Part shown: positions 6,960-51,960 of the stretch, one piece after another
Numbering within the stretch: the first letter of the stretch is position 1
Layout: the number at the start of each line of letters is the position of its first letter
Assembly: GCA_902728285.1 (NCBI GenBank)
Contig: CACVBU010000572.1
Coordinates: forward strand, 606,892-670,891
Source of the DNA: Clytia hemisphaerica
Taxonomy: Eukaryota > Cnidaria > Hydrozoa > Leptothecata > Clytiidae
Reading direction: 5' to 3'
DNA: 64,000 nucleotides
The notes under the pieces: generated by a model
Told to the model about the DNA's origin: nothing
The model's input: the letters and a program-made list of their open reading frames with translations, nothing else
Database searches by the model: none
Program-made: the position numbers and the translations under genes

Positions 6960-7690
6960 GGAAAACTTTCTATGTTTGGTTTTTTGCACAAACTACTAGT
7001 AGAGGGAATTTTGTAAAATCGCTCGACTGTTTTGTTAGAAGCACTTGTTATACATTTTTGGAAAGCTAAGGGGTAGGGGAATCGAAATTACTATGTTTCC
7101 AATTTTTTTTCAGACACTTTGGTGTGATTTTCGGACAAATATGACGGTCTCAGGCAAAAATCATAGGGTTAAAAATTAATGAAAATTTTAGTTCGAGAAA
7201 ACGGAGACCTGTTGTATATTTTTGGAAAGCTCTCAAAAAATTAGGATTAGAGATATATTGTAAGTATAGGTGATTTCAGTACCTAACTCGAGATATTGAG
7301 CTTCAAAAAGCGCAAAAACTGGACAAAATAGCTGTTTCTGGCTGAAAAACACGGTTTTCAAGGGTTGATATCTCGAGTTAGGTACAGAAATCACCTATAC
7401 TTGCAATATATCTCTAATCTTAATTTTTTGAGAGCTTTCCAAAAATATACAACAGGTCTCCGTTTTCTCGAGCTAAAATTTTCATTAATTTTTAACCCTA
7501 TGATTTTTGCCTGAGGCCGTCATATTTGTCCGAAAATCACACCAAAGTGTCCGAAAAAAAATTGGAAACATAGTAATTTCGATTCCCCTACCCCTTAGCT
7601 TTCCAAAAATGTATAACAAGTGCTTCTAACAAAACAGTCAAGCGATTCCAAAAAATCGAACAAATTCCCCCTACTATACTGTAACTATGG
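6960..7690. repeat. Fold-back element, arms of about 330 bp
   Basis: Left arm about 7010-7330 and right arm about 7355-7680 are near-perfect inverted copies around a centre at about 7342. Shared words include AGAAGCACTTGTTATACAT and CAACAGGTCTCCGTTTTCTC. No coding content. Confidence 0.88.
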
Positions 7691-11300: not shown

Positions 11301-14300
11301 ATTTTAATAGATCGTCACTATTTCTGTTCTGAATGATTGTTTAACGGTCATGCTCACGTAGATATCAATTACATTTGTTAAATGCATAACCAGGTAGGTC
11401 CATAAAAGTATCACTTGTTTATATTTTATTTTTATTTGTTTTACCGTGAAAAGTGAGATTCAAAAGGAGTAAAACAGGACATGAAAGCTATTTTGTGCAG
11501 GCTCTGTGTGGTTCTTTTTGTTCAATTTAATTTCTTCCTTCATTTTTTACAAGCTCTACTAATAATTTGAATGTTTTTTCATTTTCACCCTTAGAGATAC
11601 AAAAGCTGTTGATGAAATCCTTTCCACAATGGGGTACGTATATTATAATACTTGCTGCTACTATTAAAATAGTTTTGGTCTAAATTTTCGTTGTATTCCT
11701 TAATCTTCAGCTTTGAGATGATGAAAAAACTTTTTGCAGATATTACCAAAACGTTCATTAAAACAGAAAGACTAAGAAAGAATTAATCCACTCTTAGTAC
11801 TTGTATTGTAATATGTCTCCCTTTGCGCCAACTAGATGTTACTCACTTACGTTACATAATATTAGGGATAGATATAGTAAGAAAAAAAGTTTTTTTTTCT
11901 TATGATTGTCATATTAACTTTTTCGCAGGGAACTGGGTATCAAACCAAGGCAAGTAACTTATGGACGATTGATTGATGCTTATGCTGAAAATGGTGATTT
12001 AGAGAGTATCAACAAGGTGAAAATTATATTTATTGTATCTAAAATGTAAAATGTTATTACAACTTTTATTCATACATCCTTTGATAAATGGCAAAGCAGC
12101 ACTAAAAATCCCAATTCTCTTTTGTTGCCTGATACAGATCATCAACGAAATGGCTGAAAACAATGTATACCCATCCTCACAAACATACGTCTACATGTTG
12201 GAAAGCCTTGCACACGGTGGTCACCTTAACCTCCTATCAACAGTGTGGGAAAGAATTCAAAACGTGGAATGTTTAGCTGAAGATGTTAAGCCACTCGTCC
12301 TAACATGCGTTATAAATGGCTATTATGATTTTGCTTTTGAACTGCTCCAATTGACAACTCAAAAGACGAGCTCCAGCAAGAGTAGTTATCACTTCTACAT
12401 TGAAAGAAGGCTGTTTAACTTGCTTTACTACTGCCGAAAGGTAAGGCTTTTCCTCTATAAGAAAATTCTTGTCTCTATCTCTCCAAGGGAGTTTCTGTGG
12501 TGCATTTCTGGTAGATAGGGGAGCGTAGGTTTAAGTACAAAGTGGATTTATTAGGGCAATAAAAATTTTCCAGTATTCATTTTTTAGTTGAAATTATTTT
12601 GTTTTTCTATATGACGTGAGAGCTAATTTTTAGTGTTTTGAAAAACTTTGTCTCATCGAAACAGGGAATTGTATACATTATTGTATACATGATGATGATG
12701 GATTTGTCCGTTATTTAACGATGGTGCCAATCTTTTGTTCGATTCTTCCCATCCTTTGTTGGTTTTGAGGTCGTCTACATCTGTGCGTGTTTGTGCCTAA
12801 AATGGATTAAGTTCCTGAAATGCAACGTGAGGAAATGTGTTAAGCAGTACTATTGATAGAAAAAAGTGGTTCTTACCTTATGGCCGTTTCCAAAGTAATG
12901 GTTTTTTTACTTGTGGTTTTTTGCTTGATAGGTTTTGTAAGAAAGAAATTGGTTATGATTTTTTATTTTTTGTTCAGGTTTGTGTGTTTATGACAGTGTA
13001 TATGTATATACAGTCAGGGAAATCCCTCAATTGCGGTATACCGCAATTGCGGTAGTGGAATTTTCATCGGGGAATCATTTTACCGCAATTGCGGTATCTA
13101 TTTTCCATTTCAAATAAGTACCGCAATTGCGGTATAACGAACTTTTCATATACCGCAATTGCGGTAAAATAAATACTTAAAACTTGTTATAATACATCAG
13201 AACACTTCATTTCCATCATAATAACATAACAATGAAGCGGAGAAGTTGTGCATCAGAAAGTGACTTTTCAAAAGAGTGTAAGTGTATTGTTCACGACAAA
13301 ACGGTATCATCAGAAAAGGCATGGCATATCGAGACCTCGCGAGTGTTCCGGCCCGTCATTATAGACGAGTTGAAAAAACAAAACCTGCTACCAGAGAGGG
13401 CAAATTTCTTGTGCGCTACATGTTACGGGCGATACGGCAAACGACTTTGCCCTATATCCTCTGCGTTCACCCGAACAGACAAGTCCGTCGAACCACTTTC
13501 AAATTTCATCCCACCAATAAACCCACCCACTGAACAAGCGTTGAATTCGACTTCACCAACAGTCCAACCTATCGAAACCCCAGATGGTTCATACCCAATT
13601 AGTTCCTCAAATTTTTCAATTCGTGATGCACTTTTGCAAATGATCAATGTTTTGATGAATCACTCGTCAGACAACCTCTTGATACCACATAGCTGACAAA
13701 CATTCATCTTTCGCTTTCTTGCTCGTGAAGGCGAAGAAGCTTCAAGCTCTTGGAGTGTAGGCTCGTCGTACATGTTCTTTGTTGTTTGATTATAGTCAGC
13801 GTTGAAAAGATGTTTGTTTGTTGCGTAGCGAATGATTTGGGGTGGTCTGTTCGGAAAATGTCTATGATGTTCGATCAAAGTATCATCGTCTGTTCTGAAC
13901 TTTAAATCCCGCATCTTAGAAATAAGTCCATTAATATGGTTGCTTCGTGATTTAGCAGCCTCGAAACTATTCTCACATCTTTTTTGGTATCGTTTCCCTC
14001 TCACTTTATCTTTGGGCGTCGAAGCCTGGATTTCTTGTTGGTGTTGAGTTAGTTTGCGTTTTTTGGATGTCACGCATGTTCCGTCTTCTTTGTAAACATT
14101 GAAATCGTCGAGCGACGGAATTTGCTCTTTAGTTATCGAAGAAGTAGGTCGGTCTTTAGTTATCGAAGAAGTAGGTCGGTTAATGATTGAAGATATTGGT
14201 GACGCTGTCGATACCAAAATTTCTGAATCTTCATCATAAAAAGGAATTTGCGTGTCTGCATGAGTAGGTGTTAATAAAAAATTTTCTGAATAGTTTATCG

Positions 14301-17300
14301 ATTTTAAGGCGTTGAAGTATGTTCGTTTGTATCAAAAAGTGATGTTTGCGTGTTCGAGAATTGCTCTATTATATCTGTGATATCTTCAAATTGACTCATT
14401 TTATGTTCTATTCACGCTGAAACGAAATAAGTAATGAGTTTTAAGAATATTAATTTATCAAATCAGACGCAAAACGATTCTATCATTGATTGTATAAAAA
14501 GTTTTATCCTACTGACTAATAATTAATGAGAAGCAATAATAACTAGGGTAAAAAGCACAAAGTTATTTTAGACAATATCGTGATATCACCCCAGATTTTT
14601 TTTTCATTTAACAAAATTATGTTTAGATCGTAAATATAAACATTTTAGTAACAAATTCTTTCAATGTCTTGTTTAGGGATGTTGCCCTCGAAAAGCTTTT
14701 TGATTCCTCCAAGTCTTTGATTTATAGGTAAATTCATATTTACAATCAAAACAGCACCACCACCATTTTTATCATACGGACGACCTTGCTCAAACTTGCC
14801 AGTGTAGTTTTTTAGCCTGTGCACATTGTTCAAATAAATACACCTGAAGTCTTTGCCTAGACTTGGAGCTTAGCATACGAAAGGCGCGACAGAGATTCGC
14901 CGGGACTCTACCGACGGTTTTTCGTTCTTTTTTTGTCTTAACTAGGACAGCATAAGGGTCGTATTTGTTGTCGTTCTCCTTGTAAAGAAGCATTTCCTCA
15001 TTATCATTAGGTCTAATTTTGAAAACGTGATAGCCACTTACAAACCAGTGTATTTCGGCCTTTTTTTTCCATTTTTTAATCGAAACTACAATAGAAAGAA
15101 AGACAATGTAAAGGACCCTGCGTCAATTAGTGACCTGACCTTATAATCAACATAAAAGCTCCTTCTCAATGTAATTTAAATATGACCTTAACAAACATTC
15201 GAATCAATATTCGAAAAAAAACAACATTCGACGAAAAGATCCTTTTCCTTGTCAAAATAAAAATAAAAACAGATAGAGCTAGAAGGGAAAACATGGAAAA
15301 TGTGAAACAGTATTTTTAACTTTCAAAAGAACTTTTTTGAGATTATTTCAAAAAGAACCTGGCAGCGCTTTATCATTTGAAAGAGAGAGAGGTAACATCG
15401 TTTTAACCCATTATACCCAGAGAAAGAGTGGAAAGACTATGAATTTAATTTCTTGTTAACTTTCAACAAGATCTCCCAACCGTTATCCGTTCATTTTTAA
15501 TTTACAACAGATTAGATAAAAACTTGATCAAACATGCCATTATAGTATTAATCATATACCATTTTTCATTGTAACCACCAATCTTTTCCACTTTTCTGTG
15601 TTCTTTACTTCCCAAAAGTTTATTTAAAAATGGGTTGTATCGATAATTTTATAGTTATTTATACCACAGGGAAGATTCACTTTAAATAGGCATTGGAATC
15701 AGTTTGTTCCTTTAAATAGACGTTCGAATCAGTTTGTCCTTTTAAATAGACGTTCGCTTTAAATAGGCATTGGAATCAGTTTGTTCCTTTAAATAGACGT
15801 TCGAATTAAACAGACATTCGAATCAGTTTGTCCCTTTAAATAGACGTTCGAATCAGTTTGTCCCTTTAAATAGACGTTCGAATTAAACAGACATTCGAAT
15901 CAGTTTATCCCTTTAAATAGACGTTCGAATCAGTTTGTCTCTTTTAAAAGACGTTCGAATCACGGTGTCCCGCCCTTTTGAAAAAACGTTCAAACGAGTC
16001 TGTCGTAATAAATAGTTATTTGAAATGTAAGTTAGAGTTGAAAAATGTTCGCTACCGCAATTGCGGTATAAGTAGATAATTGACGTCAAACCTACCGCAA
16101 TTGCAGTAGATAAAAACCCAAAACTTTTTTTGGACTTCTTTTATGTTACATAGGGTCACTGATTGGCTTATAAAAAAAAAATGCATAGATAGATTTTTTT
16201 TTCCGTAGATGAAATTCTAGACGAATAAATTATCTTCCTTAAGTTGTAATTTTTGTTAGGCGATGACCGTTTGTTTTCGTCGACCAGCGCTATACGTTTT
16301 TGTTACAACCTTTTTCAGGCTAAACAGAAAATTCCACTACTGCAATTGCGGTATACCGCAATTGAGGGATTTCCCTGACTGATATATCACGATTCTTTTT
16401 TTGTTTTTTTGGACCTACCCCGGTGGGCTGTAGGTCCTATAAATTAACCTCTGTTCGTTCGTTCGTCCGTTCGTCCGTTCGTCCGTTCGTTACTAGCTTT
16501 TCTCGGGATTGGCTCATTAGTTTTTCCTAATTTTTGGCACAAAGATGCAAAATGGTAATGCCCAAAATGTGACGGAGCCCGATTTTCGAAAAAAATTCAT
16601 TTCCGGCCGAAAATGCCGGAAATATGCCGGAAAACCCGGTTTTTTGGCATTTTCTCGAGATTTCATCATTAGTTTTTTCTGATTTTTTGCACAAAGATGC
16701 GTATTAATTAGCAATGCCTAAAACATGGATTAGTCCGATTTTTGAGAAAAATTCTATTCCGGCTGAAAATGCCGGAAATATCCCGGAAATCGCCGTTTTT
16801 GCAGATTTTCATTGGACTTTTTCCTTATATTTCGTTGTTTTTTCACACAAAAACATTATTTGTAGCAATGCCCACCATCAAGCATGGTTTAATTGTCAAT
16901 ATAAGTGATTTTTGAAGCCGGAACTTTCTAAAAATCGCCGGAACCGCCTATTTTCGCCGTAAAAACGGTATTTCTTGAATTTCTCGAGCTGTACTTTATA
17001 TTTTTTCATGAAATTTTGCACACTGATGCAAAATGGCAATACCTAAAATATGACAGAGCCTGATTTTCAATTAACGTACTTTTCCGGCCGAAAATGCCGG
17101 AAATATGCCGGAAAAACCGGTTTTTTGGCATTTTCTCGAGATTTCATCATTAGTTTTTTCTGATTTTTTGCACAAAGATGCGTATTAACAATGTCTAAAA
17201 CATGGCCTAGTCCGATTTTGAGAAAAATTCTATTCCGGCTGAAAATGCCGGAAATATCCCGGAAATCGCCGTTTTTGCAGATTTTCATCGGACTTTTTCC

Positions 17301-20300
17301 TTATATTTCGTTGTTTTTTCACACAAAAAGATTATTGATAGCAATGCCCACCATCAAGCATGGTTTAATTGTCAATAAAAGTGATTTTTGAAGCCGGAAC
17401 TTTCTAAAAATCGCCGGAACAGCCTATTTTCGCCGGAAAAACGGTATTTCTTGAATTTCTCAAGCTGTACTTTATATTTTTTCATGAAATTTTGCACAAT
17501 GATGCAAAATAACAAGACCTAAAATGTGACCGAGCCCGATTTTCGAAAAATATTTTTTCCCGTTGAAAATGCCAGAAATATGCCGGAAAACCGTTTTTTT
17601 TTACATTTTCTCGAATTTTCATCTTTAGCTTTTTCTGATTTTTTGCAGAAAGATGCGTATTTGCAATGCTCAAAACATGGCCGAGTTCGATTTTTGAGAA
17701 AAAATTTTTTCCGGTTGAAAATGCCGGAAATCGCCGTCTTTGCAGATTTTCATTATATGTTTTCCTTGTATTTCTATGTTCTTCACACAAAAACATTATT
17801 GATAACAATGCTCACCATCAAGCATGATTCAATTGTCAATAAAACTGATTTTTGCGACCAGAACTTTCTATTAATTATTCCCTACAACCCTTCCCTCTCC
17901 CCCCATCAACAATCAATGATGAATTTATTGCGTTATGCATTTTCGCTAAACGATATATTTTCTGACTGATTTTTTTCTCCTCGCATTGCTATCTAACTTT
18001 CATCATCAGGTAGGTCCATTCAGCATCTAGCTTGTTTTTAATGGTTTATGGTGTAATGAGGAGTTTTGTGTTGGTCGAAATCTGGAAAATATCGATATCT
18101 GTGTTGATTGATGACGTTATTCGGATTGTTTGTAGCTGAGATAAACCATTTTTTTGCTAAGGTGTGTTTTCTGTCATAAACTTTTTCTATTTTTACTCGT
18201 CGACGTAGTTCATCTGTTCTTGTGTGATAATCAGTTCTTAATAGCGTTCTAAGGCAATTGTTCTGGCATGCTTCTAATTTGTTGTTGTTTTGTTTAGAGA
18301 GATTTAATAATGCCGGGCTTCCATTTTCGATTATGCTTCTACCAAGTGAAAGGTAGATTTTACGTTTTGTTGATAAGTTGATGTTTTTTTGTAGATTGTT
18401 TAGTTGATGGAGTATGCCGCGGCATTTTTGTGATTTTTGGATTGTAATGTCTACGTGTGTATTGAAAGAGAGTCTTTTGTCAAATGTGATTCCAAGAAAG
18501 TACATTTCGTTTGTTTGAGTAATGTTTTTATTGTTGATTTTGTACGTTCTGTTGATTTCTCTTGTACTTTTTGTGAATGATAAAGATTTAGTTTTTCCAA
18601 TGTTTATACGTAGTTTCCATTTTTCACACCAGACTATTATTTTGTTTAGAAGTTTTTGTAGTTTTTCGTTTTTATGGTAATTATTGTTTTTTGTCATTGC
18701 GTAGATTGCTAGATCATCTGCGAACTGTGATAGAAAGACGCCTAGAGCGGTTGGAATGTCGCTTGCAAAGAGTATAAAAAGGAGTGGACTTAGGCAACTG
18801 CCTTGTGGTAGTCCTTCTTTTGGTTCGAATTTGTTGGATCTTTCATTTTCAATCTGTATAAAAATTTGTCTATTGTGTAGGAAACTGTTGATTATGTTCA
18901 AATCTTTTTGTGGGATGTTGATACTGTTTAATTTGAATAAAAGTCCTTTTTTCCAGATTTTGTCAAAACATTTTTCAAAGTCGATGAAAATTGTATCAAC
19001 ACCCTGTTTTCTGTTAAATGCTTCTGTGATTTTTTGAGTTAATAAAAATAGTTGATCATTTGTGCTTCTTTTTGCTCTAAATCCAGATTGTTCTTTATTG
19101 ATGATGTCGTTATCTTCTGCCCATTGTCTAATTTTTTTTTCTAATGTTTTTTCGAATATTTTACCGAATTGATTGAGTAGTGTAATAGGTCTGTAGTTTT
19201 TTGTGTCGTTTTGTTCTCCTTTATTTTCAAATAACATGATTACTTTTCCCTCCTTCCATCTTTCCGGAAAGTATCCGATGTCGTAACAACTGTTGAATAT
19301 GGTGGTGAGGATTTTAGAGAGACTGGGTTCAAGATATTTTATAAGGACGTTTGTTGTGCCATCGACACCAGGTGCTTTGTTATTTTTGAGGTTTTTTATG
19401 ATAGATGATATTTGTTCTGAATTGAAATAATTTTCGTTTGTTCGTTCTTCTGTGGTAAAGGGTTGTTCCCTGTACCAGTTGTTGACGTTTTCTTCATGAT
19501 TGTGATCTTTTGTTTCATTACCCGAGAATATTTCATTTTGTGCAATTTTAAATAGTTCAGCTATTTCACTTTTTATTGTCGTATCTGTTTTTGTGGCTGG
19601 ATTGTAAATTTTTTTGATTGTGCTTTTTGGTTTTTTTCCTAAGATTTTATTGATTCCTTTCCAGCTTTCTTTTGAGTCTTTAGAATTTGCCTGGTCGATG
19701 TTTTTGTTCATGAATTTTTTTTCTGATTCTTTTATAGCCTGATGAATTTTTTTTGTTAACCTGTTGATTTTGGTTTTAGTGATAGGGTTTCTGGTTCTTT
19801 TGTATTCCTTTAGAAGTTTTCTTTTTTCTTGTATGTCTTTTCTTATATTGTGGTTTATTCCATGGTTGGTGCGTTCTATTGTTATTTCCGGTATGAACCT
19901 ATTTACTGTGCTGATATTTCTTTCTAGTTTATTGATGACGTCATCGATATCTTTTTTTGATTTTGGTTTGGTTTTATATTTTTCTATGAATAGGTTGTTG
20001 AGGTTTTGCCAGTTGACTTTGTTGTATTGTTTAATTTTGTTGTTTATTTTGATTTTTTCTAGATTTTCTTTTAGATTTATTTTGAAAGTTACTGGGGTGT
20101 GGTCACTACCAATGTCGTTTTCGTTTTTGGTTACAATGTCGGAAATTATTCTTTTTGGGTCCCAGAGGGCAATGTCTATGGTGCTTTCAACCCCTGTTCC
20201 GGGGTGTTTGTATGTGTATTCAGTATGTGTTGAATGAGTTAAGTCGTGGTTTTGGATAGCATTGTTTAGACTAATGCCCCCTGGGTTATTTTGTGGATTA

Positions 20301-23300
20301 TTCCAATTTTTATGCTTGCAGTTCAGATCGCCTATTATAATCGAGTTTTTATTTTTTATTAGATTTTTTATGTTGTTTGTGTCAATTAGATTGGTTTCAG
20401 GATTGTAGTAGTTGATTATTTCAATGTTGCTATTTTTGGTTTTTATTTTTGTGCACTGAAATTCATTTTGGTTTATTGTATTTTCTTTTTCGTCGATTAT
20501 ACTTAGGTCTTTTCGAATTAGGCTCATTAATCCTCCACCGGGAGATCTGTTATTGTTTGGTAGATTGTCTCTTCGGTGTTCGTTGATTTTATAATTAGGA
20601 TGATCGAATTTTAGTAATGTTTTTTTATTTAATTTTGTTTCTTGTATCTGAAGAATGTCTGGTTTGACATCATTATTGTATACATACATTTTGAAATGTA
20701 TATATGGGATAATCTTTAAAAAATAATGATGAAGGCACTGAATTGTTATTTTCAAAACAATTAGCACTAGTAGACACTAATTGATTAAAACATGATCACC
20801 TAATATCCCCAGCTATATGTAAGCCAATTAGCATTGATTTTTTTTCACACCTTACCACAGTATAAAAACTTGTTTTAAGACAGTTCATAATTCACTTACT
20901 GGCGTTCATAGGCTTTTTTAAGTCACAAGGTTGTCAATAAGGGGCGTGATAAAATGTTAGAGCCCATCTTAAATTAATCGTTAGTGCGAATGTAAAGAAA
21001 GTTTAGCTTAAAAAAAAACTATATAGTTTATATTGCAAGATATATGCAATGTATCCTGTATTTAAATTTACTTCACGGGATTCAGATACACAAGTAATAG
21101 AGAAGCATTTTATTACTCGTCATGAAGATCCCAACATCAAACTTTAGCTTTATGATGACCACTTAGGCTTAGGAATTACTAAGTGGACAGATACGAAGCT
21201 TACAAAGTTATTTATATTTTTTACTCTGCTTATTGCTGAAGCCTGGGTTACTGGGTGAATTGCAGAAAAATCATACAATGTCCCGTCCAAAAGCTCCATT
21301 TATGCTTACAAGCCAAGATCTGGGAACTAGAGGACCCCCACTTTTGTTTTGTTGTGACATACTAAAGGCTTTCTTCCGTTAACCCTTTGAGTGCCAGGGT
21401 CTTTTTTTCTAAGTTTTTTTTTAAAAATCGCTAGTTCAAACTTTAAAGGCTTATATCTCCTGATCTAGAAAGAATTAGAAGCTCGTATATAGCTCGTTGG
21501 ATAGCTTAGAGTCTCCTCTTTCTTTTGGGCGCCTTCGGCGCCGCCCGATTGAGGAAGGGCGTGGTGGGCGGCGGCCAAGGGGGGGGGTACGTTAGGGGAA
21601 TTAAAGCAGTCAGGCCCGCTGCGCGGACCTGACTGAACTGATGGAAAGGTGCCCAGTGGTAAACTTCAAATCAATTCACTAGAAGACAGAATAAAGTAAA
21701 ACAGGGCCAAATTTGGAGGTTCTTGGATCACTCGTTGACCAAAAATAGTCAAAAAACGGTCAGAATCTCAAAAAAGTGAATTTTTGTCAATTTTTTGCAT
21801 TTTTTTGACTTTTTTGCTTAAAATCTCGCTGGAAAGACTCATTTTTGAAATTCTTTTTGCTTGACCATAAAGGACAATCTAATTCCTACGAGTTCGACCA
21901 AAAATAACGATTTCTAACTCAAACTGGGCATTACAGGAGGGCTTCGCCCTCCTATATAGCCCATGTCGTATATATACGACATCGGCACTTAAAGGGTTAA
22001 AGACATTTGTTGCCTTTGAAAAATATATTCTGAATTTTTTAACTGGTAAAAACTAATACGGTCCAAAAATTTGTCCCGTCCCCAACGGCACAAAAGTCTT
22101 AATTTCTCATTTTTTGAGACATCTTTAATATTCTAACTGTATCAGGCCAATAAACTATAGGGAACTACATGCTTTTTGCAGCAGTATCATTTTTCTTGAC
22201 TTTACATGTAATAGCTACGAGTGAAAAACTTTTTTGTCCTGTCCGCAACAAAGTGTCCCGTCCGCAACATTTTTCTCAAGATTTGGGCTTTAACAAAAAA
22301 AATCTATAACAATCCAAGGAAGGCTATTTAGTAGAGTTCACAAAAATGTAAAGTTCAAATGCATTTGCCAAAGTTGAGTCATGGGTCCCATGGCTTCACC
22401 CCCCCCCTGCTCGCAGGGGGGGGTTAAAAGGTCTCAGGGCAACTGGTACCTACAAATAGTCTTTGGCCAGGGGCCACCTACTGAGCTAGGGGGGACCTTT
22501 AAGTAGCTATTTTTAAAACTGTTGTATTTAATTACACTTGACAAAAAAGAAAGTTTTTCTAAAAGTATATCTACGATTTCAATTTTTAGCTTTTTTCGAT
22601 TTTTGAACTTTTAGGGGCCACCTAGAATATTTTTCCAATAGGGGCCACCTAAATCCTAGGGGGCACCTAAATTCTTAGGGGGGACCTAGGACCTGCTTAT
22701 AAGCCATGGGTCCTCAAAAAGTGCCTGTTGCGGACGGGATATTGTATGATTTTTCTGCAATTTACCCTATTTTGTAAATTAGAGGAGGAAATTTTTTCAA
22801 CCTTTCGTTTACCTTCTCAAAAGTGAATTCTTATTCCTTTCACAGGTTATACTTGTCGCTTTGGCCAATGCCTATCTTTATCCACATCCACTAGTCGTAA
22901 AAACGTCTTTGAATCTTTTTTTTTTTCAGAACACAAATGAATATTTGAAGGCGTTAACATTGACTGAAAAGGTTTTCGATCAACCACCAAACTCGAGACT
23001 TCGCTATCTTATTGAATTCTTTGTCTCTAAAAATGACACTGGTAATTTGTTTTTTTAACTAACCTAATGGATTTTTCTTTCATCGTTTCACATACTATTC
23101 AGCAGGAGTCTCTATTTATTATTGCCTTTAAAAAGGGTCTAATATTTAAGCATCTGTTCAAGTAAACTGCATTTTTTGAGAAACTTATGCTTTGACCAAT
23201 CCCAGATAAAGATATATTGAAGATGACACTTTTAAAGAACCTTTTATCATTAATGTCACAGATACATTTGAAAGTATTGAAATATTAGGTATCAATGAAA

Positions 23301-26300: not shown

Positions 26301-29300
26301 TTAAATAGAATTATAAATATAAATACCTTGAAAACGACCATTGCCAAAACATGTTGGAAATTTCCAGCATCTAATGGTATTTTTGTCTCAATCCTCCGCC
26401 CAAAATGGGCTTTCTTTTTGAACGCTGTTTGTCTACGTCTGTATCAGACCCCTAAGATTTGTGAATATTTTAAATGCTTTCTTTTTTTTAAACGCCAAGA
26501 GTGTATGTTTACCTAGTTACAGTTAACTCTTGCTTATTCGAACTTCTATCGGGTGACCCACGAAAAAGTTCAGACGTTTCTCGACGTCTTGAGGCCGAAC
26601 AAATGTCCCAAAGTGCTTGGAGTTTAGATATTTAGAAAGTAGATAACTTAAAATTTGAGCTATCACTTTTTAAATTTGACCAACTTGTTCTCTACTTATG
26701 AGCTTTTAAAGTCAAAATTCACTTTTCGGAAAGTGTAAAAAACACGTAAAAAAGAGGTATTGAATTTATGCAATCAATTAGAAAATCACTTACAAATTGA
26801 CTTATTTAACGAGTTTTATGACATTAATGATTAATAAAAACACATTTAAAAGTAATTTTTGTTTAAAACAAGACTAGTTTTTATAAAAATTGGCGCTATT
26901 GTAGATTTTTCAGATTTTTTTCAAAAACTGTATATCAAAAACGTCTAAAAATACCAAATTTGATATTTGATGATAAGTTTTTTACACTTTCCGAAAAGTG
27001 AATTTTGACTTTAAAAGCTCATAAGTAGAGAACAAATTGGTCAAATTTAAAAAGTGATAGCTCAAATTTTAAGCTACGATATCTACTTTCTAAATATCTA
27101 AACTCCAAGCACTTTGGGACATTTTTTCGGCCTCAAGACGTCGAGAAACGTCTGAACTTTTTCGTGGGTCACCCGGTATTATTCAAATCTTCCTACGTTT
27201 CGCACTTGTTTCCAGGAGAACTTAGATAATTTCTATAATTCAAATTTCTCTGTAATTCGAACAAAAAAGATTCCCTGTTTGAATTCGAATTAGTGAGAGT
27301 TTGCTGTAACTTTCATTTTGCAAGGGTGATCTCTTCGAAAGAGCACGCGGTGACGCTCTTCAAACGTAGAACCACTTTATCTGTTTATCTCCATTTATTT
27401 TCCTTTGTTCGTTTTCAGCGAATTCAATGCGGACGATGCAAGCCAGGTTATTATTTACCGTTGAAGGATAATCTCATTAGAAAAACATTATTTTCCCACT
27501 AGTATGAAATCTTATATATCTCAAATAGCCAATATAAGAATTACCTGCTGATTGTAATTTGCTTTTATGGTATGTCACAATCATAAGACATTCTTAAAAG
27601 ACTTTCTACCTGTTTAGATATTTTCCTAAGCAAAAATGATTCTTATCTCATTGTCTTCTTCTTTTTTCCAGATCATGAAACTGTTACAGGAAAAAGGAAT
27701 GCGAGATATCAGTAAGATTCATACCGTACTTTCCTATAACAATACAAAAGTTCCAAAAAGCGCCAAAATCGTAAATATTGGGATAAGTGCTGCGGCACAG
27801 GCTTTTTGTCTTCTTGGCGCGTTTGATTGTTTAGGGAACTTTTGGATTGTTAACACGGTATCATACTGAATTCTATTGATCGAATTTTTCAATATTCGGA
27901 ACCTAATCTGAAGTCAGAATTATTTTTTTGAGTTTGTGCCTCCCTTGACCCAATCTCCTATTACGGAGAAATGCGAGCAGGGTATAGGATAATAATACGA
28001 ATAAGGACATTTTCTTAAATCAAAATATTCAATCCTCGCTTATCTTTATCTTCAGCAATTTTGACATTCGAAATCATTAAATCATTACAAACGGACGCTG
28101 AGGTTGTCGAGGGAATGAATTTTGTCAAGAACCTTATGGAACTTGTAAGTTGTCATTGTCATTATTTGTGTCAAACCCGAAAGTTTATTATAATAACTTT
28201 TATCCACAAGTGTTAAAAATAATTCGACTTAAAATTTTTGACTTCCCTAGAATTAGCTAATTCCTTTCTCCCTTGGTATTGCTCAAAATCCAGTATTAAT
28301 TCACAACATCGAGATTTTTTCTCTGCCATAGGATGTTCCCATCTCTTCTGAAACGTACACCAGTGTTTTGAGATCTCTAAGAAGACATGGATTATCTGAC
28401 GAATTCTTCATGGTGAGCTTACTTCTTTGTATGATTGTCGCTGATGGGTAGCTCAGTCAGTACAGTCATTCGCCTTACAAGCTAAGGGTTGTGGGTTCGA
28501 TCCCCGGTCACCGCCAACTCAGCGAAATAGGTTAGGTTTGGTAATGTGATCTAGGCGGTAAGTTACTGGGAGCTGAGAGTAGGTGTAGCACTCTACCTCA
28601 GCATTCGACCACCCAGGTCTGGCGCAAATAGAACAGGGGATAGACTCACTCACACTCGGGTGCGCCGAGAGCCACTAGGTGAATATACTCTCTCACTTAC
28701 TCATGATTGTCACTACTGGCCTATAATAGACTTGCACGTTCTGAGTCTTTATGACTGTGTTTTATACTTCTTTATCTTATCCAACTATGGATGATGTTAT
28801 CAAACGGGCGGATCGAATTTCTCAGCAAAACCAAGAAAAATATTATCTTCGTACATAGAAGCCGGTAATCGCTTCATTGAATTGTAGTTAAAAAAGTATT
28901 ATATTCCGTATTGTTTTAGTTTGTCCGGATAATGAAGGAGCATGGCATCGAACCGGACATCCACCAATACTATCAAATGCTCAATATGGCGGCCATGGTT
29001 GGCAACAGTATGGCTGCACAGTTCTGTTTCAACAAAGTTGTCGACACGTCAGAATTCAAGGAAATGCGTCCGAGGCTTTACAATTGGTTAATCAAAGCCT
29101 ATGGAAAGGATTCAGAAGCTAACAAAGTGCTACCGAACTATTTACGTGGTAATTTCTCTGAGAGCGCACAAAAGACTATAAACTTGTTCCAGGAAATGAA
29201 ACAAGCGGAATATGAACCGAGTCCGTTTACCGTGAGCACGGTAATCCGTAGCTACCTACAGAACGGCGATTTTGACGGCGCATCTCAACTGATCCAAGAA

Positions 29301-32300
29301 CACGGAGAGGACGAATTGAAAATGAACAACATTATACAAACGGACTTCATCCGCGCTTACATCACACAAAAGAGATATGAAGACGCCGAACTACTTTTCG
29401 AAAAGTTGAAGGGTGAATCGAAGGTGACGCTACCGCAATATAACGAGATGTTACGAATGTACGAAATAAGAGGTGGGAATCTTTTAATTTCTTTTGATTA
29501 TTTATACTCATAGAGTGCAGAGGGGTTGAAGCCCCCCTGAAGGTTCGGCCCCCCCCTGAGATTTAGCCCCCACCAAAATTCGAAATAGACAGCCCCCCCC
29601 CCTACCAAAATACAAAAAAAAAATTAATTTATGCTTAAAAATCTGAACTGTCAAATCTCCGTGAATGCCATCGACCCTTCACGGATCCTCGCTTTGGCTT
29701 ATTACTTTTCTGAGTTTCTTTTTTGTTCATCTATAACACAGACGAGGAGTATAATACCGAAAATTTTCCATAGAATATGAAGTTCACAATAAATTTATTG
29801 GCCTTGTATAGCTAGAGGAACATTTTCCTTCTATAAAAAATAAAATTTTATAAGAAAAGCAAACTGTTATTTTGAAAAAAGTGAGTAGAAGACAATTGTA
29901 ACTTAAGAAAATTGTAAACACCACATGAAAATAGCTGCGTTCTTTATTTGTCATTCATTTCAATAAACAAACTTTATCACATATCACACACCCGCACGCA
30001 CACACCACAATACAAAAAAAAACAAAAATGTTAGAATGGAAAAAATTTCAAACAATGCAAGGTCTTCATTTTCCATGTCCACACAAGAGAAAGAGATACC
30101 AAATGTATATGTCTTCTTTTGAAATTCTAATCAACAAACGTCAATAGTACGACTTTATTATTACACAAACAAAATACCAAAATGTAAAAAGAAAAATTTC
30201 TTAGTTCTTGGAAAAAGTTGTTAGGTTAGCCCCCAGTCAACAGACCTAAACAAATAGCCCCCCTCCCCTGAGTAAGTAGCCCCCCCCCTGATCTTAGGGG
30301 AAAAGAGCCCCCAACCGGAACTTTAGCTTCTAGCCCCCCCCCTAAGAGCCAGGGGTGCTGCATTCTATGATACTTATTAATTTAAATTTCATATTATATC
30401 ACGTGACTAGGCGTTTGCTTTATGCTTTTCATAAGAAACAATAAATTTCGGTTGATTTACCTTTTTGGACCTACCCCGGTGGGGTGGAGGTCCTATAAAT
30501 TAACCTGTGTTAGTCCGTTCGTTCGTCTGTTACCAACTTTTCTCAGGATTGAATCGTAGAAATCTTTCGATTTTTGGTACAAAGGTGCAAAATGATAGTG
30601 GCCAAAATGTGACGGAGCCCGATTTTTTGCATGAATTTAGGATACCATCATATAGGTAAAAGATGGCTCAAGCAGATTTTTGCTAAAAAATTTTGTTGGC
30701 TCAAAAAACGCATGTTTATCTATAAAAATCACTATTAATAAGCATACATCCATGTTCTTAGTCAAATTACTCAATTTTTTTATGAGATAGATGTTTTTTT
30801 GCTCATGAGGGTTTACTTTTAAAGAATATGTGTGTTTAGACATGAAATTTTGGTTGATTGGCGTGTTTTTATAGAAAAACTGGCCAAATTCGATATTTTT
30901 TATTAGCACATTATCAATTACTTAGGTATGAGCTTTTCTCGAGATTGGCTCTTTCATTCTTTATGATTTTTTGCACAGAGATGCATAACTATAAACCCTT
31001 GAATTTGACGGAGCTCGATTTTTGGAGAAAAAAATTTTGGTTAAATTTCAGCTAAAAAACGGCTAAAAAAAGGGCTTTTTGAACTTTGTGAAATATTAGA
31101 TCATTGTTTTTTTCTGATTTTTTGCATGAAAGTAGGTAAAAGATGGCTCAAGCTGATTTTTGTTCAAAAATAATTTTTTAAGCTAAAAAAACGCATCTTT
31201 ATCTATAAGAATCACTTTTAATAAGTATACATCAATGTTCTTAGCCAAATTACTCAATTTTTTGATGAGATGGATGTTTTTTTTGCTCACGAAGTCTTGA
31301 ATATGAAAAAATATTTTAAGAGCATGAAATTTTGGTTTCTAGACTTTTTTATATAAGAAACAAACGACTAATTTTAATAGATCGTCACTATTTGTGTTCT
31401 TAATGATTGTTTAATGGTCCGCTTACGTAGGTATCAATTATATATGTGTTAAATGCATAACCAGGTAGGTCCATAAAAGTATCACTTGTGATGTTTATTT
31501 AGGTTCAAATATTCTTGGATCGTCCTTTATATGCTCGCTAAAATCCCTACTCTGTACCAGACTGTACATAACTTGCTAAAATCCCTCCCTAACAATGGTG
31601 ACAATTTTGTTTCACAGGTGATGTCACGAAGTCAGAAAGCTTGTACCAAGAAATGTTACAAAGTGATTTCCGCCCGAACGCCTCAACGTATGCTGTCCGA
31701 ATCCGCACATACTTGACTGCGTAAGTTTCTAACCTTTTAATGGGCTTTTCCATTAAAAAACCATACAGGGGGTGGACGAACCTTTTCAAGTCAAAAAAAA
31801 TTATTGAAAATGTGAATTTACTCCCTGGAAAATGGCAAAATTTGTAAAAATATCCTTGGAAAAATTATTTTCTTCCCTTAAAGTGAGGGTGGACGAACTA
31901 AAATAGTCTTTTACCCCCTGGATTTCCCCTGGAAATGTTCGTCCTGCCCCCCCCCCTCTATGGATATAAAATGTAATGGCCCAATTTGATGCCTTTAAAT
32001 CCTATAGTGGGCCTGGAAAAATCGAAACAAATTGTAAACCTCAAGATGGTTTAAACTGCTGATTATTAAATTTGGACAGTGGGGTGTAAATACTTCGATC
32101 GATCAAGTATCCAACAATTTTACAATCTTCTCGGAATGTATTAAATCTTTGCAAGCCTCATTTCAAAAGTGTCGTTGTCAAAATTCATAAAATTCATTCA
32201 ACGTAATTATTTTTTGTGAGCGATTGCGCTCTTGTACCCAGATTGATTGCGGTTTACTTTCAGAAAGACTTATTCGCTCTATTCAATATGTAAATGTCGT

Positions 32301-48480: not shown

Positions 48481-48910
48481 GGCGTTCCATAAAACTGAAT
48501 ATATAAGGAAATCACTTTTCAGACTTGTAAAATAAAACGGGTACCCAAAAAAAACATTTTCAGCATTTTTATTGTCGAAATCAGGCTTATTATGACGTCG
48601 ACGGGGAAACGAGAAATGAATTTTTTTTTTCTTTTTATCCAACCTCGATCCCTGCGTATTATCAGCTTTTTGGTTCTTACTGATAGCGCTAGATAATATT
48701 CTCTGGCGTCAATCAGTAACGTAAATAAAGCCTGGGATACACGGGGACGAGGTTGCTTTTTATCTTCTCTTTAATCACCAGTAAACCGGTATATCTAAAA
48801 AAACACGTTACAACTTTTGCTTTGATGAAATATATTATAATGAACATAAAAAAAAAAAAAAAAAAAAATGGAAATGGGGAATCCGTATGGCGCGCCAAAG
48901 CGGAAATAAA

Positions 48911-49095
48911 TACTATCTTTCATTTCGCGACACTATCTTTCATTTCGCGGCACTATCTTTCATTTCGCGGCACTATCTTTCATTTCGCGGCACTATCTTT
49001 CATTTCGCGGCACTATCTTTCATTTCGCGGCACTATCTTTCATTTCGCGAAACTATCTTTCAGTTCGCGACACTATCTTTCAGTTCGCGACACTA
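48911..49095 (+). repeat. 20-bp tandem array (left arm)
   Basis: About nine copies of ACTATCTTTCATTTCGCGGC with point variants (GGC, GAC, CAGTTCG). The open frames across it are only repeat translation. Confidence 0.92.
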
Positions 49096-51419
49096 TTTTC
49101 CCTAAAAAACATTATCATCTTAATTGAAACAATACTATCTTTTTCACAAGATACTATCTTTATTATGGAAGCCGAGAAGTGCCATCGAGAAAAAAATATT
49201 TAATTTTAGAAAAAAAATATTTAATTTTAGTAAGAAAAATTAAATTTAATTTAGAAAAAATATCAATTTAGAGAAAAAATTAAGTTCACTTCAGAAAAAA
49301 CTGTTTTTAGAAAAAAGTTTTTTTTGGGAGAGCCTGATTCCGTGCATGCTTACACCGTCCACCGTCTGAAAAAAAATTGAAAAAAGAAAAATTTTTGGCC
49401 TGATTCCTCCCGGGCCACACACTTACTTACAACTTTCGTTTTCATACTTCCTGGATTTCTTTTTGGATTTGACTTTTGTTCAGACCAGATTATTTTTTTG
49501 CACATCACATAGATGTCAATCCACAAACAATTCAAGTTGACAGAACCGATATTATGCTCAATATTTAATACCTTTTATTTATTGGGGAAAAAATGTCGAA
49601 GTTTTATTGAAAAAAGTATTTTACGAGATAAGTTTCAATTATAATTTTCATGGAAATTTTTAATCGACAGATTTAGCTTGGCGTCAGTTTTGTTTGGTTG
49701 ATGTTTGGTATTGTGATCATTAAAAGCAATGAAATGCCACACAGTCACTCTATACATGATGCCTCCAGCCATGATTGGTATCAGAATGTTGGAAAAAAAA
49801 TTATATTGACTTATTTTTACAATTTTGGCGGTGTGGGTTTAGTTGGTTGATAATGTTTACACTGTGGGATGGTTTTCAAAAAACTGTTATATTGATTGCT
49901 GTTTGTTGGAATTGATTACCAAAAAAAAGAGAACCTTTTTTTGATAAATATACTTTATTTTTTTCATGAATCGAAAAAACCGTTTGGATAGCATGTCTTG
50001 TAGTAACCAATGCAGTGTCTGTTTTCAAATTTTGAAAGCTCTATGCCTACTGAATTGAAGCTCTGTCTAGCTCTGTTTTAAAACTTTGAGCCATGTTTTT
50101 TTCTTTGTTGCTATTAAAGATAGATCTTTAAATTGTCGTAATGTAAATTTATTTGTAAAGTTTTAGTTTTTGAGTTTAGTTCATCAGTAGTACATACAGT
50201 AGTATTTTTTCAGTAATCCTTTCTTATAAATATAGTAGCATTTAACCAGACTCATTACCCTCATTATATTCGAATTTGTATTTTTTTAGGACTGATAAGT
50301 ACATATTTTTAAACACCAAAACAAAGCAAACAACATGCCAGTTCTTTCTGGACAAATATACTTTATTGTGTGCTTTGAGTTCTATTTTAATCAACCCTCT
50401 CAACTGCTGATCTTTCAACTATCATTTAGGAGTATAGAATGGGCTTCCATAATATGTATAGTACCATTTTCTCTAAGTATTTTGTGAAAATTGTCAACAA
50501 AGTAGACTTCTTGACTGTCCTTGTCCCTTATGTTAAAGTTGTTCTGATGGAGGAGTTGCTATTTTTGGTAGTTTTCACATATCAATAAGGAGCTTTGATG
50601 TAACTGTTTTTTTCTGATGAAATCATACTAATCTGAAACTATTAGGCCTTAATGAACTTTCTAGAACAATAATCTTGCTCCAATCTTGAGAAACACTGCA
50701 AAAATAGGTTAGCATTCCCTGCCATAATTTCACAGATTTCCTCTGCTTTCTGCTTGAAAACGCTGTCGTATAGCCGAAAACGAAAGTGAAACTGTGAAAA
50801 CGTCCGCAAATTCGGGCCCAGTCCCCTTCCGAGACGGAGGCTAAATTGAGTAAAAGTTTTTGGTCGGGAATAAAAAAATCGGGTAAAAAAAGTTTTGGTC
50901 AGGTGATGAAATTGGGAATAAATTTTGTTGGGGAAAAATTTCGTCACCCCTTCAAAATTTTCGTCACTTTCCGCTGACATTTTTTCCCATAATAACAACG
51001 TAGGTAAAAAAAATTCTGATTTTTTGCATAAAAGTAGAGTATCATAAATAGGTAGGTAACGGTTGCGTTAGATTTCGGTAACAAAAATTAAAACCCGCGA
51101 GAAGTAGTTCCAATTAATAAGGTATGTTTTAAGGTTTTAATTTTTTTTTACTAAAATAAAATTAAATATTTTTTTCCCAATTTAAATTTGTTTTTCTAAA
51201 ATTAAATATTTTGTTTCTAAATTTAAATCGTTTTTCTAAAATCAAATGTTTTTCTGTGAAATTAAATATTCTTTTATTCTAAAATTAATTATTTTTTTCT
51301 GAAATACAATATTTTTTGGTCGATGGCACTTCTCGGATTCCATAAAAAAGATAGTATTGTTTCAATTAAGATAATATTTTTTTGGAAAGATAGTATAGTT
51401 TTAAAAAAGATAGTGTCGT

Positions 51420-51600
51420 TTTAATAAAGATAGTGTCGCGAAATAAAAGATAGTGTCGCGAAATGAAAGATAGTGTCGCGAAATAAAAGATAGTGTCGCG
51501 AAATGAAAGATAGTGTCGCGAAATGAAAGATAGTGCCGCGAAGTGAAAGATAGTGTCGTGAAATGAAAGGTAATGTCGCGAAATGAGAGATAGTATTTAT
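51420..51600 (-). repeat. 20-bp tandem array (right arm, inverted)
   Basis: About nine copies of GCGAAATGAAAGATAGTGTC, the reverse complement of the left-arm unit. Confidence 0.92.
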
Positions 51601-51960
51601 TTCCGCTTTGGCGCGCCATAAATCCGAGGGATTCCGAATCCGAGGGATTCCGAATCCGAGAAAGAAAGAATAAGGTACCCGATTTGTCGAGTCCAGTATT
51701 GCACTTGGCACTTTTTCGTGTCGCTATCAAAGTAAGGCTACGAGAGAGCTTACCTTGATCATCAGAGTAAACCAGTGAAGCATTTGCTGAATTTACAAAC
51801 GTACTCCGTCATACAAAAGAGCTTATACTGAGCTCATACTTCGTTTCTACACAGAACACTGCACATTAGTCTGTCTAACTGCACATAAAGACAGAAAGTC
51901 AGAAGCTGGTTGTCCTTTTTTTACTTTTATATAGTATGTTTTGAAGTTTTAAAAAGCAAC

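Follow-up and report, generated by a model that had tools for sequence, protein, structure and literature searches.

A Clytia hemisphaerica DNA transposon family with 5-bp target duplications, palindromic end arrays and a putative DDE-like transposase

We analysed a 64,000-nucleotide stretch of the Clytia hemisphaerica genome (assembly GCA_902728285.1, contig CACVBU010000572.1, positions 606,892 to 670,891 of the forward strand), which is called the window in the following. Positions 13011 to 16381 of the window contain a DNA transposon copy with terminal inverted repeats (TIRs), a 5-bp target site duplication (TSD), arrays of a 16-bp palindrome at both ends and gene remnants in between. The features of this element are listed below, with the strand where one applies (ORF, open reading frame; aa, amino acids; L006, the locus of a longer copy in the same genome).

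13006-13010: left TSD ATATA, same letters as 16382-16386
13011-16381, plus strand: transposon copy of 3371 bp, internal-deletion derivative of a 6533-bp DNA transposon (comparison with L006:1312-7844)
13011-13065, plus strand: left TIR, 55 bp, contains two tandem palindrome units
13023-13038: outer palindrome unit, 2 mismatches; the outer half-site change is identical in both TIRs
13039-13054: palindrome TACCGCAATTGCGGTA, exact
13081-13096: palindrome, exact
13119-13134: palindrome, exact
13151-13166: palindrome, exact (fourth exact unit from the left)
13232-13696, plus strand: 154-aa ORF, N-terminal zinc-binding domain (C-K-C-x2-H ... C-x2-C-Y) of a transposase-like protein of about 850 aa
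13660-14399, minus strand: broken remnant of a minus-strand gene; the PHD-like finger end, present in L006, is deleted
13680-13681: internal-deletion junction, full-length positions 670 and 3737 joined
14648-15122, minus strand: broken HIRAN-domain gene (PF08797 in 14793-15122), goes on in another frame
15680-15960: minisatellite (30/47/77 bp) in the right part of the element
16053-16068: palindrome, exact
16093-16108: palindrome, 1 mismatch, CpG to CpA
16327-16381, minus strand: right TIR, 54 of 55 positions matching the left TIR
16338-16353: palindrome within the right TIR, 1 mismatch, CpG to TpG
16354-16369: outer palindrome unit of the right TIR, 2 mismatches
16382-16386: right TSD ATATA, its 5-bp length set by other copies

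The original prediction, made from the letters of the window alone, had described an element with inverted termini and an ATATA duplication at 13011-16381, and these coordinates proved to be exact. The TIRs start with CAGTCAGGG. At this site alone the A/T-alternating target also permits a duplication of 1 or 3 bp; the length was set to 5 bp because the other copies settle it at this value. Random pairs of 5-mers from the window are identical with a frequency of 0.0021. When up to three mismatches are allowed, the palindrome TACCGCAATTGCGGTA has nine matches in the window, every one of them within the element, compared with a mean chance expectation of 0.09. Five units are exact, two have one mismatch and two have two mismatches. 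The first two classes correspond to the seven exact or near-exact copies predicted before, and the predicted spacing of 42, 38 and 32 bp in the left array is correct. The first reading had overlooked that the outer palindromes stand in tandem inside the TIR: each TIR contains two units head to tail, and the outer unit is altered alike at both ends. Exact half-sites TTGCGGTA are found 14 times in the element and four times in the remainder of the window. Both one-mismatch units (16093 and 16338) carry CpG transitions, which, with only two cases, would fit methylation followed by deamination. The CpG ratio is 1.28 in the element and 0.81 outside, but this cannot be called element-specific, because a ratio of 1.28 is attained by 12 of 243 equally sized sliding segments, and the high run continues over the satellite to the right of the element.

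Analysis of the coding capacity showed that the 154-aa ORF starts 65 bp behind the fourth exact palindrome, in agreement with the predicted position of a Cys/His ORF directly behind four palindromes. Its final residues are encoded past the deletion junction; the deletion removed the PHD end of the minus-strand gene and most of a large plus-strand gene. When all 45 stop-to-stop frames of the element with a length of 35 aa or more were scanned with Pfam, a single match exceeded its cut-off, the HIRAN domain PF08797 (14793-15122, minus strand; 25.6 bits, cut-off 24.7), which the first reading had also recognized. No transposase family exceeded its Pfam cut-off in these frames. Matches to Pfam families such as Meckelin, VGCC_alpha2 and DUF7830 were under the cut-off and were judged to be chance, as was a RelE-like match in the PDB to the 154-aa ORF (E 0.04). 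NCBIfam yielded only sub-threshold matches, and no THAP domain was matched by the 154-aa ORF. The two longest frames of the element, 223 and 167 aa, are longer than expected: among 1000 randomised sequences with matching dinucleotide composition, the longest frame came to 223 aa in a single case, and the second longest fell short of 167 aa in every case.

To place the element in its family, the host genome (417 Mb, 951 contigs) was searched for further copies. The exact palindrome TACCGCAATTGCGGTA occurs 29 times on ten contigs, and its reversed control does not occur. Contig C128 contains a 6533-bp copy (L006:1312-7844) with mutually identical 55-bp TIRs and a clean CCTGT duplication. The window copy is an internal-deletion derivative of this form, because it equals two outer parts of L006 (671 bp with 99.6% and 2807 bp with 94.9% identity), joined at 670/3737; about 3.07 kb of the L006 interior are missing. 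The distances of all nine palindrome units to the ends are identical in the two copies. A search of the genome with the element ends, in which 40 of 183 candidates were scored, led to 38 places (including two on C928 separated by 219 bp), a rough lower bound, so that a similar end is present at at least 38 places genome-wide; 11 of these are not among the fetched copies. A 5-bp TSD was found in all 23 two-ended copies tested, namely the window copy, L006, L010 and 20 short copies, all 20 of which had been fetched from the end search. Together with the TIRs, this fixed duplication length identifies a DNA transposon (class II, TIR). Seven loci with one recognisable end or none (L007, L008, L009, L011, L012, L013 and L014) are outside this count.

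Nineteen of the 20 short copies measure 319-379 bp, and their mean identity of 96.1% would be fitting for recent movement. Alignment with the right end of L006 gave 73-75% over about 190-215 columns for 18 of these 19 and 83% over 89 columns for L067. In the copy L059 (1345 bp) both ends match L006 and the middle of about 520 bp does not.

The plus strand of L006 contains a large gene that is readable in pieces in several frames. Two relatives contain the whole large protein in a single open frame, of 855 aa in L018 on contig C419 and of 882 aa on C794. The 154-aa ORF of the window shares its protein start with the segment L006:1494-1943, and this segment matches the L018 protein at residues 3-82 with 44%. 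The Cys/His protein of the original prediction does exist as an ORF, but it is not a whole protein, as that reading had missed; it is the N-terminal part of a protein of about 850 aa cut by the deletion. A 115-aa core piece of the large protein (L006:3283-3627) has 65 matches in the genome, some of which share a locus; the 855- and 882-aa frames belong to these matches. We compared conservation across 27 loci, which include the query's own and several from one subfamily and are not independent; here C21, H26, C70 and C73 near the N-terminus were each conserved in 10 of the 10 loci covered. A second Cys cluster is located at 388-403. D278 (21 of 22 loci covered), D487 (23 of 24) and E705 (21 of 22) are our guess at a candidate catalytic triad. 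In the PDB, the single 855-aa protein found nothing below E 0.22, and the matches above this value were judged to be chance. In the viral_contigs collection no relatives were confirmed for the 154-aa ORF, the HIRAN ORF, ORF B or L006:3283-3627, in a search sensitive to close relatives only.

The minus strand of L006 has a frame of 332 aa with a PHD-like finger at its end (22.9 bits, cut-off 24) and another of 144 aa with a HIRAN match exactly at the cut-off of 24.7 bits. Inspection of L040 and L042 by eye showed a PHD-like Cys/His pattern at the end of the frame that converges on the large gene. Each of the three long elements examined that have both ends (L006, L040, L042) contains a PHD-like partner gene. 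Searches of the open-licence PMC literature found nothing on HIRAN with a DNA transposon and transposase, or with transposable elements and cnidarians; a search for HIRAN and transposons gave nothing on eukaryotic transposons judging by title.

L040 and L042 are sister elements that have CAGTCAGG ends and a 5-bp duplication in common with the window family. L040:836-6934 has CAGTCAGGC ends, TIRs that match at 95% and the duplication ACCAG. Its eight CCGCGATCGCGG units, six exact and two with one mismatch, all lie within about 340 bp of the ends. The core CCGCGATCGCGG of L040 differs from the window type CCGCAATTGCGG, which is that of L006, at two symmetric positions, and both cores are perfectly palindromic; the large protein of L040 also differs from the L006 type. 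A changed yet palindromic core is what would be expected of a dimer-binding site under selection, and this one clear comparison is suggestive of it. L042:1256-7263 has the left end CAGTCAGGCGC and the duplication GTCAA. A search of the open-licence PMC literature did not find the palindrome's 14-base core.

Independent insertions with a 5-bp stagger, common ends, long and deleted forms and the gene layout are shown, and the first reading of a DNA-transposon family with 5-bp duplication is supported by all 23 two-ended copies and the two sister elements. Copies with inconsistent duplications, which would have spoken against it, did not occur among those tested. Its statement that no known transposase motif is visible holds for the window frames and for the long copies at the Pfam cut-off.

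From these data we consider it probable that the family is a cut-and-paste lineage with a DDE-like transposase that matches none of the families searched, and that the end palindromes are dimer sites of an element protein. Confidence in the full mechanism is slightly reduced by the lack of independence of the conservation counts and by other acids that are conserved no less well. The long form combines a plus-strand gene for the protein of about 850 aa with convergent minus-strand PHD-like and HIRAN genes. In all likelihood, the large protein is a transposase of the DDE type that would insert with a 5-bp stagger. Binding to the palindromes as a dimer is most likely a property of its N-terminal zinc domain or of another element protein. 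The cleavage ends would be marked by the tandem units within each TIR, and the subterminal units may aid the assembly of a paired-end (synaptic) complex. Four exact units immediately precede the large gene, and we propose that from this position they could also regulate its transcription. The reading of the arrays as operators or cooperative binding sites receives indirect support from the changed but palindromic core of L040. With both ends kept, the window copy could be mobilised in trans. It can still encode the N-terminal domain alone, and this domain might serve as a repressor. A model for such a role is offered by the KP derivative of the P element: there, too, an internal deletion leads to a truncated protein that keeps the N-terminal zinc DNA-binding domain. 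The P element itself has an 8-bp duplication and a THAP domain, as opposed to the 5-bp duplication of the present family and the 154-aa ORF without a THAP match.

Several observations weigh against this interpretation. Neither the L006 large-gene pieces nor the proteins of 855 and 878/882 aa nor a set of 15 aligned members matched a Pfam family over the cut-off, and a profile of the 15 members had no PDB match at E≤10. The triad is proposed from one genome and non-independent loci, and E576 (22 of 22), D637 (23 of 23) and E662 (23 of 23) are conserved at least as well. The large gene of L006 shifts frame several times, part of which could be introns, and none of the copies seen combined the 6.5-kb length with clearly intact genes. 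AlphaFold single-sequence models of two window ORFs (mean predicted local distance difference test score about 51) had no usable fold. The AGGAA duplication of L010 (865 bp) is valid only if its last base, unlike the family end, is counted as element. HIRAN was not noticed by eye in the listed frames of L040 and L042, the palindrome units of L042 are mixed and imperfect, and L041 (the most divergent long open frame), L043, L044 and L045 gave no convincing TIR/TSD.

As a more far-reaching and tentative proposal, the family could form an undescribed superfamily, defined by a transposase of about 850 aa outside the known families, a 5-bp duplication, CAGTCAGG ends, a convergent PHD partner in a RAG1/RAG2-like layout, a palindrome code that tracks the transposase subfamily and deletion copies that act as a self-repressor consisting of the DNA-binding domain. 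Novelty at this level was judged against Pfam and the PDB. It is also possible, though not the likelier case, that the family belongs as a divergent member to a lineage already catalogued which the searches used here fail to recognise: hAT5, Transib/CMCT or one of the Repbase superfamilies that have no Pfam model, such as Academ, Sola or Dada. This would bear on novelty only; it is compatible with the proposed mechanism and does not contradict it. Several Repbase superfamilies are not known to have Pfam models; Academ, Sola and Dada have TSD lengths other than 5 bp. Structures of RAG1, Transib and Hermes are deposited in the PDB, and the missing Pfam and PDB matches of the 15 members argue against such a kinship. 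Transib and RAG-like elements resemble the family in the 5-bp duplication and CA..TG ends, and RAG-like elements have two convergent genes, the second of which encodes a PHD finger in some. Their ends, however, are of the CAC type, unlike the ends here; Pfam and the PDB gave no RAG1-core-like or Transib match for the 15 members, and Pfam reports no Kelch for the L006 partner. The ends of hAT elements have G at position 5, which CAGTC here lacks, and no hAT domain was among the Pfam matches of the 15 members at E≤0.1. On the other side, an excerpt of PMC12730594 describes 5-bp TSDs for hAT5, and CA..TG ends with TSDs of 2-5 bp for the CMCT clade, so that the ends and duplication found here agree with CMCT in the broad sense, and the duplication length also with hAT5; a related transposase was not found for the 15 members among families with a Pfam model. 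Repbase contained many superfamilies as of 2015 (PMC4455052, excerpt). CACTA/Spm membership was rejected on the basis of the ends and of the 5-bp instead of a 3-bp TSD. Likewise, the window element lacks the TAYGG..CCRTA ends and 6-bp TSD of IS3EU (PMC12730594, excerpt).

A weak similarity to DUF6589 (PF20231) was seen in 3 of the 15 members (best E 0.0064); the two of them that were identified, L034 and L037, align with the final part of its model at 15.7 and 15.3 bits (cut-off 27). Kinship was rejected, with scores under the cut-off and hhalign probabilities of 0.2% and 0.0% against two DUF6589 proteins of the same genome, from shallow alignments. DUF6589 itself has at least 105 matches listed in the host genome, where 102 of 356 candidates were scored, and no match in any of 14 control genomes; because of these many copies it may be another mobile-element protein. 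A search of the open-licence PMC literature found nothing on it.

A further alternative leaves the lineage aside and assigns palindrome binding to the minus-strand PHD-like or HIRAN protein, like the separate TNPA of Spm/En. The presence of the PHD-like gene in all three long elements is in line with this. PHD fingers, however, are in general readers of histone tails, HIRAN is a domain that binds DNA ends, palindrome recognition is not known for either, and the zinc motif of the large protein is conserved in every locus covered. We therefore regard this assignment as unlikely, even though TNPA, which is separate from TNPD, recognises the subterminal repeats of Spm/En (PMC2613891, excerpt). Least likely of all are host transcription factor sites or DNA hairpins merely carried by the element: a perfect 16-bp palindrome could bind any dimer and four exact units precede a gene, but with only 29 exact copies on ten contigs it is not a common host site, the core change in L040, whose large protein differs too, argues against a generic host site, and a close palindrome pair occurs nowhere in the prokaryote collection and once in viral_contigs, in a phage. 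This pair (L001:9550-9595, two 16-bp palindromes 30 bp apart from start to start) was read by eye as T-A-I-A-V codons within a short frame and rejected as a coding-sequence coincidence. The TIR start has no match in either collection.

Returning to dimer sites of an element-encoded protein, Spm/En is by analogy the nearest documented working parallel (PMC2613891, excerpt). According to the same excerpt, Spm/En and other CACTA (CMC) elements have short TIRs and subterminal repeat arrays bound by an element-encoded protein; transposition depends on TNPA, which is also able to control its own activity, defective derivatives are mobile in trans, and the repeat motif varies by family. The differences are the CACTA ends and 3-base duplication there, as opposed to CAGTCAGG ends, a 5-bp duplication and perfect palindromes here, and the lack of detected transposase similarity in Pfam for the 15 members.

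The surroundings of the element contain further repeats. A tandem repeat with a 476-bp unit (about 2.9 copies, 16521-17870) lies near its right end, followed by a non-LTR (long terminal repeat) retrotransposon (18038-20776, minus strand) with a 912-aa open frame comprising endonuclease and reverse transcriptase domains. Two large foldbacks with loops below 40 nt are located at 7008-7656 (arms 305 nt, 94%) and 2315-2941 (arms 297 nt, 86%). A weak PPR match left of the element (12021-12515, 18.9 bits, cut-off 30) and a clear one far to the right (28920-29513) are on the same strand; because these matches flank it on both sides, the element may be located in an intron. A second TIR element of 2735 bp (48886-51620) has TATGG..CCATA ends, a 6-bp duplication AATCCG and 20-bp tandem repeat arrays inside both ends. 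The single ORF scanned in it (50642-51067, minus strand) had no Pfam match. Its ends and duplication fit the description of IS3EU (PMC12730594, excerpt).

Taken together, a protein family without a Pfam match over the cut-off or a PDB-profile match now has a mobile-element context, defined ends and a 5-bp duplication. The natural pair of end palindromes and the candidate binders make the recognition specificity directly testable. If the layout with a PHD partner is widespread, the family would join RAG1/RAG2 as another example of a transposase accompanied by a partner that reads chromatin.

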